This document shows positions 4,663 to 62,044 of a stretch of DNA of 64,000 nucleotides, one piece after another. The translations under genes and the position numbers were made by a program. The notes under the pieces were generated by a model. It was not told where the DNA came from. It worked only from the letters and a program-made list of their open reading frames with translations, and ran no database searches. Origin of the DNA: Paracoccaceae bacterium (lineage in GTDB: Bacteria; Pseudomonadota; Alphaproteobacteria; Rhodobacterales; Rhodobacteraceae); contig PWZT01000037.1 in assembly GCA_003567315.1 (NCBI GenBank), positions 124,001-188,000 of the forward strand, written 5' to 3'. Position 1 is the first letter of the stretch, and each line of letters starts with the position of its first letter.

Positions 4663-5586
4663 ATGACCCTTCGCCTGACACCTCTGGCCCTCACCGTGAG
4701 CCTTGCGGCTACCCCGGCCTTCGCCGAATGCGAGACCGTCACCTTCTCGGATGTGGGCTGGACCGACATCCCCGCGACCACGGCTGTCGCCACCACGATC
4801 CTCGACGCGCTCGGCTATGAGACGACAACGCTGGTGCTCTCGGTCCCTGTGACCTACACTTCCATGGCCAATAACGACGTCGATATCTTCCTCGGCAACT
4901 GGATGCCCACGATGGAGGCCGACATCGCCCCTTACCGCGAGGCGGGCACCGTTGACACGGTCCGCCGCAATCTCGAGGGCGCGAAATACACGCTGGCCAC
5001 CAACAGCCATGGCGCTGCCCTTGGCATTGGCGATTTCGCCGACATCGCCACTGTCGCCGACGCGCTGCAAAACCGCATCTACGGGATCGAGCCGGGCAAT
5101 GACGGCAACCGCCTGATCCTCGACATGATCGACGCCGATGCCTTCGGGCTCGGCGACTTCACAGTGGTCGAAAGCTCGGAACAGGGGATGCTGGCGCAGG
5201 TCGCACGCGCAGAGCGGCGCGGCGAGCCGGTCGTCTTTCTCGGCTGGGAGCCGCACCCGATGAATGCGAATTTCGACATGACCTATCTGGAAGGGGGCGA
5301 TGACTGGTTCGGCCCCGATCTGGGCGGTGCCGAGGTCTATACCAACACCCGCGCCGGGCTGGTGGAGGAATGTCCCAATCTCGGCCAGTTCCTCAATAAT
5401 CTCGAATTCACGCTGGAGATGGAAAACGAGATCATGGGCGCGATCCTCGATGATAACATGGAACCCGAAGCCGCCGCCCGCGCATGGCTGATCGAGAACC
5501 CCGATGCGCTCGGCCCCTGGCTTGCCGGTGTCACCACGATTGACGGCGAAGACGCGCTCGGCGCAGTCACCGAAGCCCTGAACTGA
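4663..5586 (+). CDS. choX: Choline ABC transporter, periplasmic substrate-binding protein
   Basis: A 307-residue exported binding protein of the ProX/ChoX type. A signal peptide ends at about residue 21 (ATPAFA, then ECETVTF). The mature protein has the FSDVGWTDIPATTAVAT opening and WMPTMEADIAPY motif seen in choline binders. Aromatic residues in such proteins box the quaternary amine. It is the first gene of choX-choW-choV and diverges from betI, so uptake of choline and its oxidation to betaine are encoded back to back. The start is preceded by GGGAG at 4649-4653. Confidence 0.93.
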   Translation: MTLRLTPLALTVSLAATPAFAECETVTFSDVGWTDIPATTAVATTILDALGYETTTLVLSVPVTYTSMANNDVDIFLGNWMPTMEADIAPYREAGTVDTVRRNLEGAKYTLATNSHGAALGIGDFADIATVADALQNRIYGIEPGNDGNRLILDMIDADAFGLGDFTVVESSEQGMLAQVARAERRGEPVVFLGWEPHPMNANFDMTYLEGGDDWFGPDLGGAEVYTNTRAGLVEECPNLGQFLNNLEFTLEMENEIMGAILDDNMEPEAAARAWLIENPDALGPWLAGVTTIDGEDALGAVTEALN

Positions 5587-5593
5587 CGCAATC

Positions 5594-5623
5594 AAGGCCC
5601 CGGTCACGCCGGGGCCTTTGTCT
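5594..5623 (+). terminator. Hairpin after choX
   Basis: AAGGCCCCGG (5594-5603) pairs perfectly with CCGGGGCCTT (5609-5618) around a 5-nt loop and is followed by TTTGTCTT. It looks like a rho-independent terminator. Between the binding-protein gene and the permease gene it would let choX be made in excess of choW and choV. Confidence 0.7.
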
Positions 5624-5671
5624 TGCAGCCTGCCGAAATGGCGTCATGCCCCATGCCCATGGCGGAACCCC

Positions 5672-6523
5672 ATGTCTGATACGCTCACTCGCCTCATCAC
5701 CGACCCGAAAATCCCTGTCGGGCGTGAAGTCGCCAATGCCTTCACCTGGATGCAGGACACTTTCGTCACTGCTTTCGACGGGCTCGAGGCGGGCTTGCGC
5801 AGCGCCATCGAGCTGCTGGCCTTCGCGCTGCAAACCCCGCACCCGCTGCTGATCGTCGCCGCATTCGCTGCGATCACATGGGTCTTGCAACGGCGCATCG
5901 CCCCGGTCGTGATCGTCACGATCTGCGCGCTTTTCGCGCTCAATCAAGGCTATTGGGCGCTGACCATGCAGACGCTCACGCTCGTGCTCGGCTCCTGCTT
6001 CGTGTGCATGGCCATCGGCGTGCCGCTGGGCATCTATTCGGCGCATCACCCGCGCTTCTATCGCGGGCTGACCCCGGTGCTCGACCTGATGCAGACTTTG
6101 CCGACCTTCGTCTATCTGATCCCGGTGCTGGTCTTGTTCGGTCTGGGCATGGTGCCGGGGCTGGTGGCGACCGTGATCTTCGCCATGCCCGCTGCGATCC
6201 GGCTGACCGAACTCGGCATCCGCTCCACCCCGACCGCACTGTCCGAGGCCGCCACTGCCTTTGGCGCGACCACATCGCAGCGCATCCTCAAGGTCGAGCT
6301 GCCTTACGCCTTCCCGCAGATCATGGCCGGGCTCAACCAGACCATCATGCTCTCGCTTTCGATGGTCGTCATCGCGGGGCTGGTCGGCGCGCCGGGGCTT
6401 GGCGTGCCCGTGGTGCGCGCGCTCAACACAGTCAATGCGAGCCTCGGCTTCGAGGCGGGCGCGGTCATCGTCGCGGTCGCGATCATGCTCGACCGGATGC
6501 TGCGCGTGGAGGTGAAGCAATGA
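5672..6523 (+). CDS. choW: Choline ABC transporter, permease
   Basis: A 283-residue inner-membrane protein with about six hydrophobic segments. The binding-protein-dependent permease loop (LSEAATAFGATTSQRILKVELP) docks onto the ATPase. It is close to ProW and ChoW. I chose MSDTLTRLITD, preceded by CGGAA; an upstream TTG would run through the choX terminator. The stop overlaps the choV start (ATGA at 6520-6523). Confidence 0.92.
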   Translation: MSDTLTRLITDPKIPVGREVANAFTWMQDTFVTAFDGLEAGLRSAIELLAFALQTPHPLLIVAAFAAITWVLQRRIAPVVIVTICALFALNQGYWALTMQTLTLVLGSCFVCMAIGVPLGIYSAHHPRFYRGLTPVLDLMQTLPTFVYLIPVLVLFGLGMVPGLVATVIFAMPAAIRLTELGIRSTPTALSEAATAFGATTSQRILKVELPYAFPQIMAGLNQTIMLSLSMVVIAGLVGAPGLGVPVVRALNTVNASLGFEAGAVIVAVAIMLDRMLRVEVKQ

Positions 6524-32403: not shown

Positions 32404-32829
32404 ATGGAAAACTGCCTGTTTTGCAAGATCGCCGCTGGCACCTTGCCCGCGCACAAGATCTACGAGGACGAGCATATCCTCGCCTTTCTGGATCTGCACC
32501 CGATCCGCGAGGGGCACACGCTGGTTATCCCGAAAGCCCATCACGTCTGGTTCGAGGATCTGCCCGAGCCGCTCGCCACCCGGATCACAAGCTGCGCGCA
32601 GAAAATCGCACGGGCCATGAAGACGCTTTATCAGGTCGAGCGCGTGTCGCTTTTCTACACCGGGATCCATGTGCCCCATGCGCATGCGCATGTCGTGCCC
32701 ATGCATCACGTGCATGACGTGACCTCGGCGGCCTATCTGCAAGAGGGGCTCGACCATTTCGCCACGCCCCCGCAACTGGCACCGGATCAGATGGGCGAGA
32801 TCGCGAAATCGCTACGCACGCGCCTGTGA
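32404..32829 (+). CDS. HIT-family nucleotide hydrolase
   Basis: A 141-residue protein of the histidine-triad family (Hint-like), which removes groups from nucleoside phosphoramidates. Start MENCLFCKIAAGTLP has the typical CxxC zinc-like pair. The triad is HVPHAHAHVVP near residue 92. Length is normal for the family, with a short C-terminal helix. Physiological substrate unknown. Confidence 0.92.
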   Translation: MENCLFCKIAAGTLPAHKIYEDEHILAFLDLHPIREGHTLVIPKAHHVWFEDLPEPLATRITSCAQKIARAMKTLYQVERVSLFYTGIHVPHAHAHVVPMHHVHDVTSAAYLQEGLDHFATPPQLAPDQMGEIAKSLRTRL

Positions 32830-32903: not shown

Positions 32904-32939
32904 ATGCATGTTTGAAATTTACCTTGCGTAAACATGCAT
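32904..32939. promoter_or_regulatory. Long inverted repeat upstream of the DUF1127-sRNA unit
   Basis: ATGCATGTTT (32904-32913) and AAACATGCAT (32930-32939) are perfect 10-bp arms around a 16-bp centre, about 110 bp before the DUF1127 start. It could be an operator, or a hairpin ending the HIT transcript. A weak stress-sigma-like promoter, TTGTGC-15-CTATCT, can be drawn further down at 32971-32997. That assignment is speculative. Confidence 0.4.
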
Positions 32940-33048
32940 CTAGCGCATGGCCGCAATGCAGCATCGCGCGTTGTGCAGGTGCAGCATAGTGCTATCTTTC
33001 TCTCAACAGCACCGGCAGTGGTCGGCGCGAGATAGAGGTAGAGTAACG

Positions 33049-33261
33049 ATGGCGCATCTTGTCGAAAACTTGGGCATAGCGCACCCGAAACAAGGGGTTT
33101 CCAGCCTGTTTGGCCGGATTTCCGAGGCTCTGGCGAAGCGCCGGGTTTATAAACGCACATATGCGGAGCTCAGCCAGCTCAGCACGCGGGAACTCGACGA
33201 TCTGGGTATCTCGCGCTCGATGATCTCGCGGCTCGCACGCGAAGCTGCGGAAAGGAAATAA
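33049..33261 (+). CDS. DUF1127 small protein, CcaF1-like
   Basis: A 70-residue basic protein ending in the DUF1127 motif: YKRTYAELSQLSTRELDDLG, then ISRSMISRLAREAA. In Rhodobacter sphaeroides the homologous gene (RSP_6037, CcaF1) is stress-induced, encodes an RNA-binding protein and is co-transcribed with the CcsR small RNAs directly downstream. The same arrangement is seen here. GAGGTAGAG precedes the start. Confidence 0.88.
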   Translation: MAHLVENLGIAHPKQGVSSLFGRISEALAKRRVYKRTYAELSQLSTRELDDLGISRSMISRLAREAAERK

Positions 33262-33266
33262 CGGTT

Positions 33267-33335
33267 TCGGGCCCCTCTCCTCCTCCCTGGGGTCCGATTG
33301 CGGCGGTGGCCACTCCTCCTCCCTTGGTCACCGCC
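33267..33335 (+). ncRNA. CcsR/cuckoo-type small RNA, unit 1
   Basis: Two adjacent hairpins 4 nt apart, starting 6 nt after the DUF1127 stop. Hairpin 1 pairs 33267-33275 with 33289-33297 (one G-U). Hairpin 2 pairs 33302-33312 with 33325-33335 (one G-U). Both loops display CTCCTCCTCCCT, complementary to Shine-Dalgarno sequences. Cuckoo RNAs are defined by two such loops, and R. sphaeroides CcsR1-4 act in oxidative stress and C1 metabolism. The function here is inferred. Confidence 0.85.
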
Positions 33336-33376
33336 ACTAATTCCGGCAAGGGCCACGCGCCCGGCACCGGATCAGA

Positions 33377-33450
33377 ATGCCGCCCGCTCCTCCTCCCTAG
33401 GGCGCGCATGACAGAGTGATCGGCCCTCCTCCTCCCTGGCCTGTCACTCT
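33377..33450 (+). ncRNA. CcsR/cuckoo-type small RNA, unit 2
   Basis: Hairpin 3 (33377-33385 with 33400-33409, one bulge) and hairpin 4 (33413-33425 with 33438-33450, one 2x2 internal loop) lie 3 nt apart, each with loop CTCCTCCTCCCT. The 41-nt spacer before the unit can fold as TCCGG/CCGGA. Stem sequences differ from units 1 and 3 while the loops are identical, a mark of selection on the loop. Confidence 0.85.
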
Positions 33451-33477
33451 CAAGAACTGGCCTTCGGGTCAGAAAGA

Positions 33478-33560
33478 TTGCAAAGGCCCGCTCCTCCTCC
33501 CTAGGGTCTTGCAAAATCGGCGGCAGTCCCCTCCTCCTCCCTGGGACTGTCGCCTTTATT
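33478..33560 (+). ncRNA. CcsR/cuckoo-type small RNA, unit 3
   Basis: Hairpin 5 (33478-33489 with 33504-33514, small internal loop) and hairpin 6 (33519-33530 with 33543-33554, one G-U) lie 4 nt apart with the same CTCCTCCTCCCT loops. The last stem is followed by TTTATTCATTTAT, so it may also end the transcript. A 27-nt spacer separates it from unit 2. Confidence 0.85.
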
Positions 33561-33583
33561 CATTTATGACGGTATTTCGGCCG

Positions 33584-33652
33584 AAAATGAAAAAATCGGG
33601 TGATGGGTTTTTTCATTTTTGGCGTATTTTCCCAGAAAAATGAAAAAATCCC
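33584..33652. repeat. AT-rich triple repeat able to form alternative hairpins
   Basis: AAAATGAAAAAATC (33584-33597), its near-inverse GGGTTTTTTCATTTTT (33605-33620) and AAAAATGAAAAAATCCC (33636-33652) occur in order. The middle arm can pair with either outer arm. The block lies between the small-RNA array and the uvrD stop, which converge. It may be a bidirectional terminator with two competing folds. Confidence 0.6.
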
Positions 33653-33680
33653 AACATGCTGTTTTCATGGGCGTTTTTGT

Positions 33681-60819: not shown

Positions 60820-60886
60820 GATCCCGCTCTATCTCCAGCGGCGGGACACCCTTCCCCAACGAAGGGCATATATCTGGAAGGATACC
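60820..60886 (+). promoter_or_regulatory. serC-leader-like structured 5' UTR
   Basis: Two stems precede serC: TCCCGC/GCGGGA (60822-60827 with 60841-60846) and CCCTTC/GAAGGG (60849-60854 with 60861-60866). TCCAG in the first loop can instead pair with CTGGA (60874-60878) at the ribosome site. Rfam describes a serC leader upstream of alphaproteobacterial serC; the family match is by recollection and needs a covariance search. Confidence 0.55.
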
Positions 60887-62044
60887 ATGACTGCACCTGC
60901 ACAACCGGCCAAGCGCCCGGACAATCCGCGCTTTTCATCTGGCCCCTGCGCCAAAATCCCGACATTCGAGCTTGCGAAACTCGCTGATGCGCCGCTGGGG
61001 CGGTCGCATCGCGCCGCTGTCGGCAAGGCCAAGCTGAAAGCGGCCATTGACGGCACGCGCGAAATCCTCGGCGTGCCCGACGATTACCGCATAGGGATCG
61101 TGCCTGCCTCGGACACGGGCGCAGTGGAAATGGCGATGTGGTCGCTACTGGGCGCGCGTAAGACGACGATGGTCGCTTGGGAGAGTTTCGGCGCGGGCTG
61201 GGTGACGGATGCGGTCAAGCAGTTGAAGCTCGATGCGGATGTGCGCACGGCCGATTACGGTCAGATCGTCGATATGGCGGCGATTGATTACGATACTGAT
61301 GTGGTTTTCACATGGAACGGCACCACCTCGGGCGTGCGGATGCCGCATGGTGACATGATCCCATCGGATCGCGCGGGGCTCACGATCTGTGATGCGACCT
61401 CGGCGGCTTTTGCAATGGGTCTGCCCTGGGACAAGCTCGATGTCGTGACCTTCTCCTGGCAGAAGGTTATGGGCGGTGAGGCTGCGCATGGAATGCTGAT
61501 CCTGAGCCCGCGCGCCGTGGAACGGCTGGAGAGTTACACCCCGCCCTGGCCGCTGCCCAAGATTTTCCGCATGACGAAGGGCGGCAAGCTGAATGAAGGC
61601 ATCTTCAAGGGCGAGACGATCAACACGCCCTCGATGCTGGCAGTGGAGGATTACCTTGTCGCGCTCGACTGGGCGCGCGAGATCGGCGGCCTGCCTGCGC
61701 TGATTGCGCGCTGCGATGCGAATGCGGCTGTAATCGCGCGTTTCTGCGAGACGCATGACTGGATCGCCAATCTGGCCGAAGACCCGGCGACCGCCTCCAC
61801 AACGAGTGTCTGCCTGAAATTCACCGATCCTGCGATTGCCGATGGCGCGGCCTTCGCCAAGGCCGTCGCGAAACGGCTGGAAGCCGAGGGCGTGGCTTAT
61901 GACATCGGCGCGTATCGCGATGCGCCTGCGGGGCTGCGGATCTGGTGCGGCGCGACAGTCGAGACCGCCGATATCGAGGCGCTGATGGGCTGGCTCGACT
62001 GGGCCTATCATGCCGAGCGCGCGGCCCTTGCTGATGCGGCCTGA
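60887..62044 (+). CDS. serC: Phosphoserine aminotransferase
   Basis: A 385-residue PLP enzyme making phosphoserine from phosphohydroxypyruvate. [17 protein letters not shown] is the alphaproteobacterial N-terminal form. The PLP Lys is in [22 protein letters not shown] lies upstream. It precedes serA by 68 bp; the two probably form an operon. Confidence 0.96.

Follow-up and report, generated by a model that had tools for sequence, protein, structure and literature searches.

The best described relative of the locus reported here is found in Rhodobacter sphaeroides, where an RpoHI/RpoHII promoter yields a joint transcript of ccaF1, encoding a DUF1127 protein of 71 aa, and four CcsR RNAs (PMC10253847; this and all other papers are cited from excerpts). 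The ccaF1-CcsR transcript is processed by RNase E, with CcaF1 having a role (PMC10253847), and both the cotranscription and the RNase E processing into sRNAs are described in PMC10253847 and PMC8625941. The association of a DUF1127 gene with CcsR-type RNAs in alphaproteobacteria is referred to as the CIN1 locus (PMC10253847). A separate line of work concerns the LysR-type regulators VtlR and LsrB. VtlR acts as an activator, direct or indirect, of DUF1127 genes or sRNAs (PMC12595884, PMC7486931), the gene order trxB-vtlR is given as well conserved in Alphaproteobacteria (PMC7486931), and LsrB is called unique to Rhizobiales (PMC11975290). The LsrB consensus, GCAT-N3-TG-N3-T, has been placed at -61 to -49 of PabcR1 (PMC8844928).

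The locus in our window (the whole stretch of 64,000 nucleotides analysed, from a Paracoccaceae bacterium) is a DUF1127-cuckoo operon (CIN1, ccaF1-CcsR type) with three two-hairpin units. The operon type is already known: a DUF1127 gene followed by tandem CCUCCUCCC hairpins is the ccaF1-CcsR/CIN1 layout of PMC10253847 as excerpted, and the CcsR/cuckoo identity that a sequence-only reading of this DNA had proposed is supported. We regard the array as adding a further natural variant to a known type of stress-RNA operon; its promoter element and predicted targets are worth following.

The DUF1127 gene and its hairpin array

The DUF1127 gene (Table 1) lies directly upstream of the array on the same strand, as it does in 31 of the 32 genus loci parsed, the window included, and the distance from the end of its ORF to the first 9-mer CCTCCTCCC is 13-20 nt in 31 of 32 parsed genus loci. 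The neighbours of the locus are a HIT-domain gene upstream (32404-32829), in the same orientation, and a convergent gene for a UvrD-type helicase downstream. A Natronohydrobacter sp. MAG (L148) has a HIT gene, promoter and DUF1127 start like those of genus members such as L097, a resemblance by which the window may belong to the Natronohydrobacter/Roseinatronobacter group. The window's genome carries a second DUF1127 gene of 69 aa, recognised by a Pfam match, downstream of ruvC (L227 5903-6112, G000:C14).

The 12-mer CTCCTCCTCCCT is present in six exact copies, all on the forward strand, at 33277, 33313, 33387, 33426, 33491 and 33531. Together these span 33277 to 33542, with no copy elsewhere in the window, and 100 dinucleotide-preserving shuffles gave a mean of 0.00. 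The sequence-only reading had described six hairpins with identical loops behind a DUF1127 gene, arranged as three pairs with particular spacings, and folding recovered both. Each copy of CTCCTCCTCCCT sits in its own hairpin, with predicted loops of 12-14 nt that all hold the 12-mer, and the two hairpins of a pair lie 4, 3 and 4 nt apart, the pairs themselves being separated by 41 and 27 nt. That reading had missed two spacer hairpins and an 18-bp hairpin beyond the array (Table 1). Folded as a whole, the region 33262-33660 reaches -168.4 kcal/mol (z -7.37; none of 100 shuffles equal). When folded singly, hairpins 2, 4 and 6 are strong, and hairpins 3 (z -2.01, 9 of 200 shuffles as good) and 5 (z -1.51, 18 of 200) are weak.

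Table 1. Features of the locus, numbered from the first nucleotide of the window.
Feature	Position	Strand	Support
TTTACCTTGCGTAAA, TTTAC-N5-GTAAA inverted repeat immediately 5' of the promoter box	32918..32932	+	relaxed form in 29/31 genus loci
CGCATGGCCGCAATG, VtlR/LsrB-like box (GCAT-N3-NG-N3-T), 26 nt 5' of TTG	32944..32958	+	motif match, genus alignment
TTGTGC, putative -35	32971..32976	+	conserved in genus alignment
GTGCAGGTGCAG, second box GTGC-N4-GCAG, overlapping the -35, PhaR-like	32973..32984	+	29/31 genus, 22/24 family loci
CTATCTT, putative -10	32992..32998	+	genus alignment
DUF1127 protein gene, CcaF1-like, 70 aa	33049..33261	+	PF06568, E 2e-14, 53.5 bits (cut-off 23.3)
Hairpin 1 (pair 1)	33267..33297	+	folding, genus covariation
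Hairpin 2 (pair 1)	33302..33335	+	folding; both-side changes in 8/10 counted pairs
Spacer hairpin between pairs 1 and 2	33342..33371	+	folding; outer stem in genus consensus (helix 4, 98.2% of cells paired)
Hairpin 3 (pair 2)	33377..33409	+	folding, z -2.01; stem without a pair in RNAalifold consensus, alignment poor there
Hairpin 4 (pair 2)	33413..33450	+	folding, genus covariation
Small UUCG hairpin between pairs 2 and 3	33457..33472	+	folding; not in RNAalifold consensus
Hairpin 5 (pair 3)	33478..33514	+	folding, covariation; strongest CcsR1 match (E 2e-9) is to hairpins 5 and 6 together
Hairpin 6 (pair 3), probably also terminator in most relatives	33519..33554	+	-24 kcal/mol, z -6.18
AT-rich 18-bp terminator-like hairpin, 3' of array	33580..33623	+	folding

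A search with the Rfam covariance model, which had been suggested as a check, bore out the family assignment in part. At gathering score, Rfam gave no match at the array, whereas in a permissive search CcsR1 (RF02791; gathering 65.3 bits) matched pair 3 at 44.0 bits (E 2e-9) and pair 1 at 32.6 bits (E 4.6e-6), with pair 2 reaching only 12.9 bits (E 3.1). CcsR1 also matched ten of ten other genus loci, with no E-value above 3.5e-6 and no score reaching gathering. The model ar14 (RF02344) matched in the window at 44.9 and 44.2 bits, below its gathering score of 58.8, and among 18 named relatives ar14 reached gathering in five and CcsR1 in none. Because the CcsR1 matches stay below gathering, we file the array under the broader DUF1127-cuckoo kind and not under Rfam CcsR1. 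The sole gathering-level Rfam match in the window is a serC leader RNA at 60839-60890 (RF00517, 71 bits, E 1.2e-13).

The loop pattern of one pair was found in 35 of 37 genus genomes and in 142 of 198 family genomes; the reversed control of this pattern gave 0-2 (genus) and 0-4 (family) matches per genome and strand. We parsed 35 genus loci, including that of the window (L038), of which 28 have six exact loops and four have five exact loops and one near-miss, so that six loops are present in 32. The remaining three comprise one different, single-pair locus and two loci beginning at contig ends. The earlier count of three units, as opposed to the four of R. sphaeroides, was thus right, and three is the rule in the genus. 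Each pair position has its own sequence across the genus, with pair 3 the most conserved and pair 2 the least like the others. The comparison shows that the three units are old and position-specific in the genus, not interchangeable recent copies. Across the family, pair matches per genome are very variable (0-25). One locus, L007 (G165:C1:334949-335888), holds about 25 loop pairs in a higher-order repeat of three successive spacer types, a copy count far above that of every other genome in the sample. Certain genus genomes additionally hold a single-pair cuckoo locus at another site, where the DUF1127 pattern applied here has no match (L098, L099, L100 and L101).

Covariation was assessed in an alignment of those 28 genus loci, the window's among them, whose six loops are all exact; RNAalifold produced a consensus of 47 pairs from it. 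Standard pairs fill 97.4% of cells versus 90.3% in shuffles, and 27 of the 47 pairs are double-changed versus 14.6 (sd 2.0) in shuffles, with none of 500 shuffles as high. Structures with slid partners have at most 10 double-changed pairs, a comparison in which the consensus structure has an advantage because it was derived from the same alignment. Neither hairpin 3 nor the UUCG spacer hairpin is in the consensus, and both are outside the covariation count. Counted for hairpins 1 to 6 in turn, 28, 27, 28, 28, 28 and 28 of the 28 loci leave the 9-mer CCTCCTCCC unpaired with a stem closing it; with shuffled flanks the same was seen in 22 of 168 cases. Selection on both stems and loop, as claimed earlier, is supported by the covariation.

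Within 16 nt after hairpin 6, a run of at least four T is found in 25 of the 28 genus loci (at least five T in 23), for which reason this last anti-Shine-Dalgarno hairpin probably doubles as a terminator in most relatives. In the window the run is broken (TTTATTCATTT, longest run TTT), and the separate 18-bp terminator-like hairpin lies beyond hairpin 6. Between the array and uvrD (33580-33660) there are three AAAATGAAAAAA-like arms, two direct and one inverted, giving the AT-rich 18-bp hairpin a possible alternative partner; similar arms are present in the closest relative, L045.

The promoter and its candidate regulators

The upstream regions of 31 genus loci are strongly conserved in alignment. 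A box of the GCATRGCNGCAWT type (GCATN3NGN3T) stands exactly 26 nt before the TTG in all 31, and the first box stands 26-27 nt before it in 21 of the 24 loci of our family promoter set (those with a parsed DUF1127 ORF, out of 30 family loci). If the TTG is taken as -36 to -34, the first box covers approximately -62 to -50. In the window, 12 of its 15 positions are those of the VtlR motif given in PMC12595884, read as the reverse complement. The best match agrees with this motif at 12 or more of 15 positions in 28 of the 31 genus loci and in 20 of the 24 from the family, where about 0.1 and 0.2 are expected from resampled sequence. The window's box, GCATGGCCGCAAT, has six of the seven fixed positions of the LsrB consensus as given in excerpts of PMC7486931 and PMC8844928; the full consensus is present in nine of the 31 genus loci, the window not among them. 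RpoHI/RpoHII promoters have TTG as their conserved triplet at -35 (PMC3441632), and CTATCTT fits the preferences for C-14, T-13, A-12 and T-9 reported in the same source. The gap in TTG-N18-CTATCTT is one nucleotide under the 19 that the numbering in PMC3441632 implies.

All GTDB genome contigs were scanned for a stricter pattern in two parts (first box, gap, ATTGTGC box), which matched at least 116 stretches. The matches listed comprise 80 loci with 81 sites; six sites have less than 300 nt of sequence after them, leaving 75. Among the matches listed, a DUF1127 gene follows 74 of the 75 readable sites (63 found by a strict ORF pattern, ten more by Pfam and one, L188, by eye), and CCTCCTCCC occurs within 900 nt after 71 of the 75. 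Of the 80 listed loci, 77 have titles with what we take to be Rhodobacterales genera or families, and three are titled only as Pseudomonadota, Alphaproteobacteria or bacterium. In the window's genome, the version of the pattern with the second box occurs once, at this locus. Ten genomes were examined for the strict pattern, and six lack it; one of these six, G179, possesses PhaR together with a looser box. The sole exception to the DUF1127 association among the 75 sites listed is in Yoonia litorea (L119), which has no DUF1127 ORF. Near 5394-5800 of this locus, the promoter element is followed, after 60 nt, by seven loops without an intervening DUF1127 gene, indicating that the RNAs can exist without the protein.

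The conserved promoter box is a new lead that may reveal an unrecognised regulator. Judging from its sequence and position, an activator of the VtlR/LsrB (LysR) type is probably bound around -60, in combination with RpoH-like -35 and -10 elements. A broader proposal would be that DUF1127-cuckoo operons throughout the Rhodobacterales answer to a LysR regulator of the VtlR/LsrB type that has gone unrecognised in this order, in an ancient alphaproteobacterial circuit merged with RpoH. We offer this tentatively, as an idea whose chances fall slightly short of even. If it were true, a LysR protein acting through the DUF1127 protein and anti-Shine-Dalgarno RNAs would control pyruvate dehydrogenase and C1 or alcohol oxidation, and a circuit of the LsrB type would exist in a group said to be without LsrB. 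The promoter box would then join the CcsR/CcaF1 work in Rhodobacter and the VtlR/LsrB work in Rhizobiales into one circuit. A LysR ORF beside trxB, the place of vtlR/lsrB in Agrobacterium, was not found in the trxB neighbourhood of the window's genome. Searching for ar15 (RF02345, abcR) as a way toward the LsrB neighbourhood yielded no match in 96 class genomes and was uninformative, as the controls were silent too. The literature searched, as excerpted, does not speak of a site for VtlR/LsrB or PhaR at ccaF1/CcsR.

The boxes could instead be sites for PhaR, so that this regulator of PHB granules would control the operon in place of a VtlR/LsrB-like LysR protein or together with it. The boxes resemble CTGCNNNGCAG, an R. 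sphaeroides PhaR site given in PMC12542648, and TGCRNYGCASMA (PMC6201568), and S. meliloti phaP promoters have two copies of the PhaR site flanking the -35 (PMC12542648). A phaR gene is present in the window's genome (PF07879, E 7.7e-28), where CTGCN3GCAG sites lie upstream of the gene adjoining phaR, probably a phasin (named by eye), and PhaR hits were obtained in 191 of 198 family genomes. In addition, the complete genome G150, with no PF07879 hit, has lost GTGC-N4-GCAG and kept the form of the first box (GCATGGCGGTATT before the TTG); this is one case and would fit two different binders. The palindromes had led us to favour PhaR as sole owner of the boxes, a reading that was demoted by the genus and family alignments anchored on the -35 and by the VtlR motif, and is kept as a rival. 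At 26 nt before the TTG, the family alignment shows GCATRGCNGCAWT and not a palindrome, and the palindrome of the genus is 8 bp further downstream than GCATRGCNGCAWT. The window's own palindrome, CCGCAATGCAG, has one mismatch to CTGCNNNGCAG, and the box is present in G098 and G166, which gave no PF07879 hit (assemblies 84% and 71% complete). On balance, we consider control by PhaR rather unlikely.

We also think it unlikely that this is a plain RpoHI/RpoHII stress operon, in which the conserved upstream sequence would be an extended promoter only, without a dedicated regulator. R. sphaeroides ccaF1 does have an RpoHI/RpoHII promoter (PMC10253847), and TTG...CTATCTT in the window would fit one (PMC3441632), but a 13-bp element at -62 to -50, with its spacing fixed in the genus and in most family loci, exceeds the footprint of a sigma factor.

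Predicted targets and the operon as a whole

In sense, the loop corresponds to the 16S anti-Shine-Dalgarno sequence and would accordingly pair with the Shine-Dalgarno sites of mRNAs and not with the ribosome's own anti-Shine-Dalgarno. The sequence-only reading had proposed binding to mRNAs or ribosomes; pairing with mRNA sites, in competition with ribosomes, is feasible, and pairing with the ribosome's anti-Shine-Dalgarno would not be expected. The loop complement GGGAGGAG has 49 sites in the genome, 43 of them outside the array. No enrichment of the complement was seen in the genome, with 49 sites versus 68 for the reversed control (CCTCCTCCC: 16 versus 20). Sixteen of the 43 were judged by eye to be at Shine-Dalgarno positions, 3-9 nt before the start codon of an ORF of at least 75 aa. 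Two of those counted (L071 and L238) are in a frame open upstream. Other sites, among them L074, L077, L235, L239, L244, L248, L250 and L252, are Shine-Dalgarno-like and were left uncounted, their start codon lying at only 0-2 nt, at a long distance or within a longer open frame, or being a rare one.

According to NCBIfam, the genes at the counted sites include those for the E1-beta (E 1.2e-253) and E2 (E 6.9e-159) components of pyruvate dehydrogenase, adjacent on one contig, and for a PQQ-dependent dehydrogenase of the methanol/ethanol family (E 2.5e-199). About 5.4 kb from the latter, on the same contig, is the gene for a substrate-binding protein of the PQQ-alcohol-dehydrogenase system (E 4.9e-140); a 3-oxoadipyl-CoA thiolase and others complete the set. 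The agreement of these predicted targets with the pathways reported for CcsR is striking, yet such sites are ordinary strong Shine-Dalgarno sequences, here chosen by eye. The predicted sites of the pyruvate dehydrogenase E1-beta and E2 genes and of the PQQ alcohol dehydrogenase gene offer directly testable base-pairing pairs in a family with few targets.

Taken together, we consider it very probable that this is a three-unit DUF1127-cuckoo operon, cut into anti-Shine-Dalgarno sRNAs that block carbon-metabolism mRNAs, with an RpoH-like promoter and probably a LysR-type activator. Transcription would depend on the RpoH-like -35 and -10 together with a VtlR/LsrB-type LysR activator around -60, and would proceed from this single promoter through the DUF1127 gene and all six hairpins. 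The transcript would be cut into small RNAs with two anti-Shine-Dalgarno loops each (a step that RNase E carries out in R. sphaeroides, with assistance from the DUF1127 protein). By pairing with purine-rich Shine-Dalgarno sites, these loops would keep mRNAs of carbon metabolism from being translated; the functions predicted as targets here are pyruvate dehydrogenase and PQQ-alcohol oxidation. The sequences themselves establish the gene, the hairpins with their covariation, and the conservation of both the units and the promoter box. We infer cotranscription, processing, stress induction and targets from relatives, and LysR-type control from sequence only. That the hairpins are not sRNAs but a stabiliser or terminator of the DUF1127 mRNA, or a sponge for mRNAs or proteins with Shine-Dalgarno sequences, would suit the T-run behind hairpin 6 in most genus loci and the very variable copy number, but the invariant loops on co-varying stems, the Yoonia litorea locus with its box and loops lacking a DUF1127 ORF, and the processed CcsR RNAs reported in R. 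sphaeroides (PMC8625941) make it highly improbable.

Comparison with described systems

The three-unit DUF1127-cuckoo operon can be set beside four systems, as these are described in the excerpts cited. The first is the VtlR/LsrB circuit, described in Brucella, Agrobacterium and Sinorhizobium, in which DUF1127 genes and anti-Shine-Dalgarno sRNAs such as AbcR are switched on by a LysR regulator. The site there is GCAT-N3-TG-N3-T at -61 to -49, compared with GCAT-N3-NG-N3-T at about -62 to -50 here; the window differs at one fixed base, and no LysR gene was found adjoining trxB. NfeR1 of Sinorhizobium meliloti is a stress-induced sRNA with three identical anti-Shine-Dalgarno motifs that inhibit translation (PMC8844928). 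Unlike the present array, it is a single 115-nt RNA, for which the excerpts of PMC8844928 mention no DUF1127 gene. With the cuckoo family (ar14, SmelA075 and SmelA099), the locus shares a varying number of hairpins, anti-Shine-Dalgarno loops of the CCUCCUCCC type and divergent stems (PMC3927594), whereas the window scores below the ar14 gathering cut-off of 58.8 and its hairpins are paired behind a DUF1127 gene. In comparison with ccaF1-CcsR1-4 of Rhodobacter sphaeroides, there are three units here versus four, and the window scores below the gathering cut-off of Rfam CcsR1 (44.0 versus 65.3 bits). Going by the description of the R. sphaeroides locus, the two share a small DUF1127 gene (70 aa here versus 71 aa), tandem CCUCCUCCC hairpins, a putative promoter compatible with RpoHI/RpoHII (TTG...CTATCTT in the window), and a terminator-like end.
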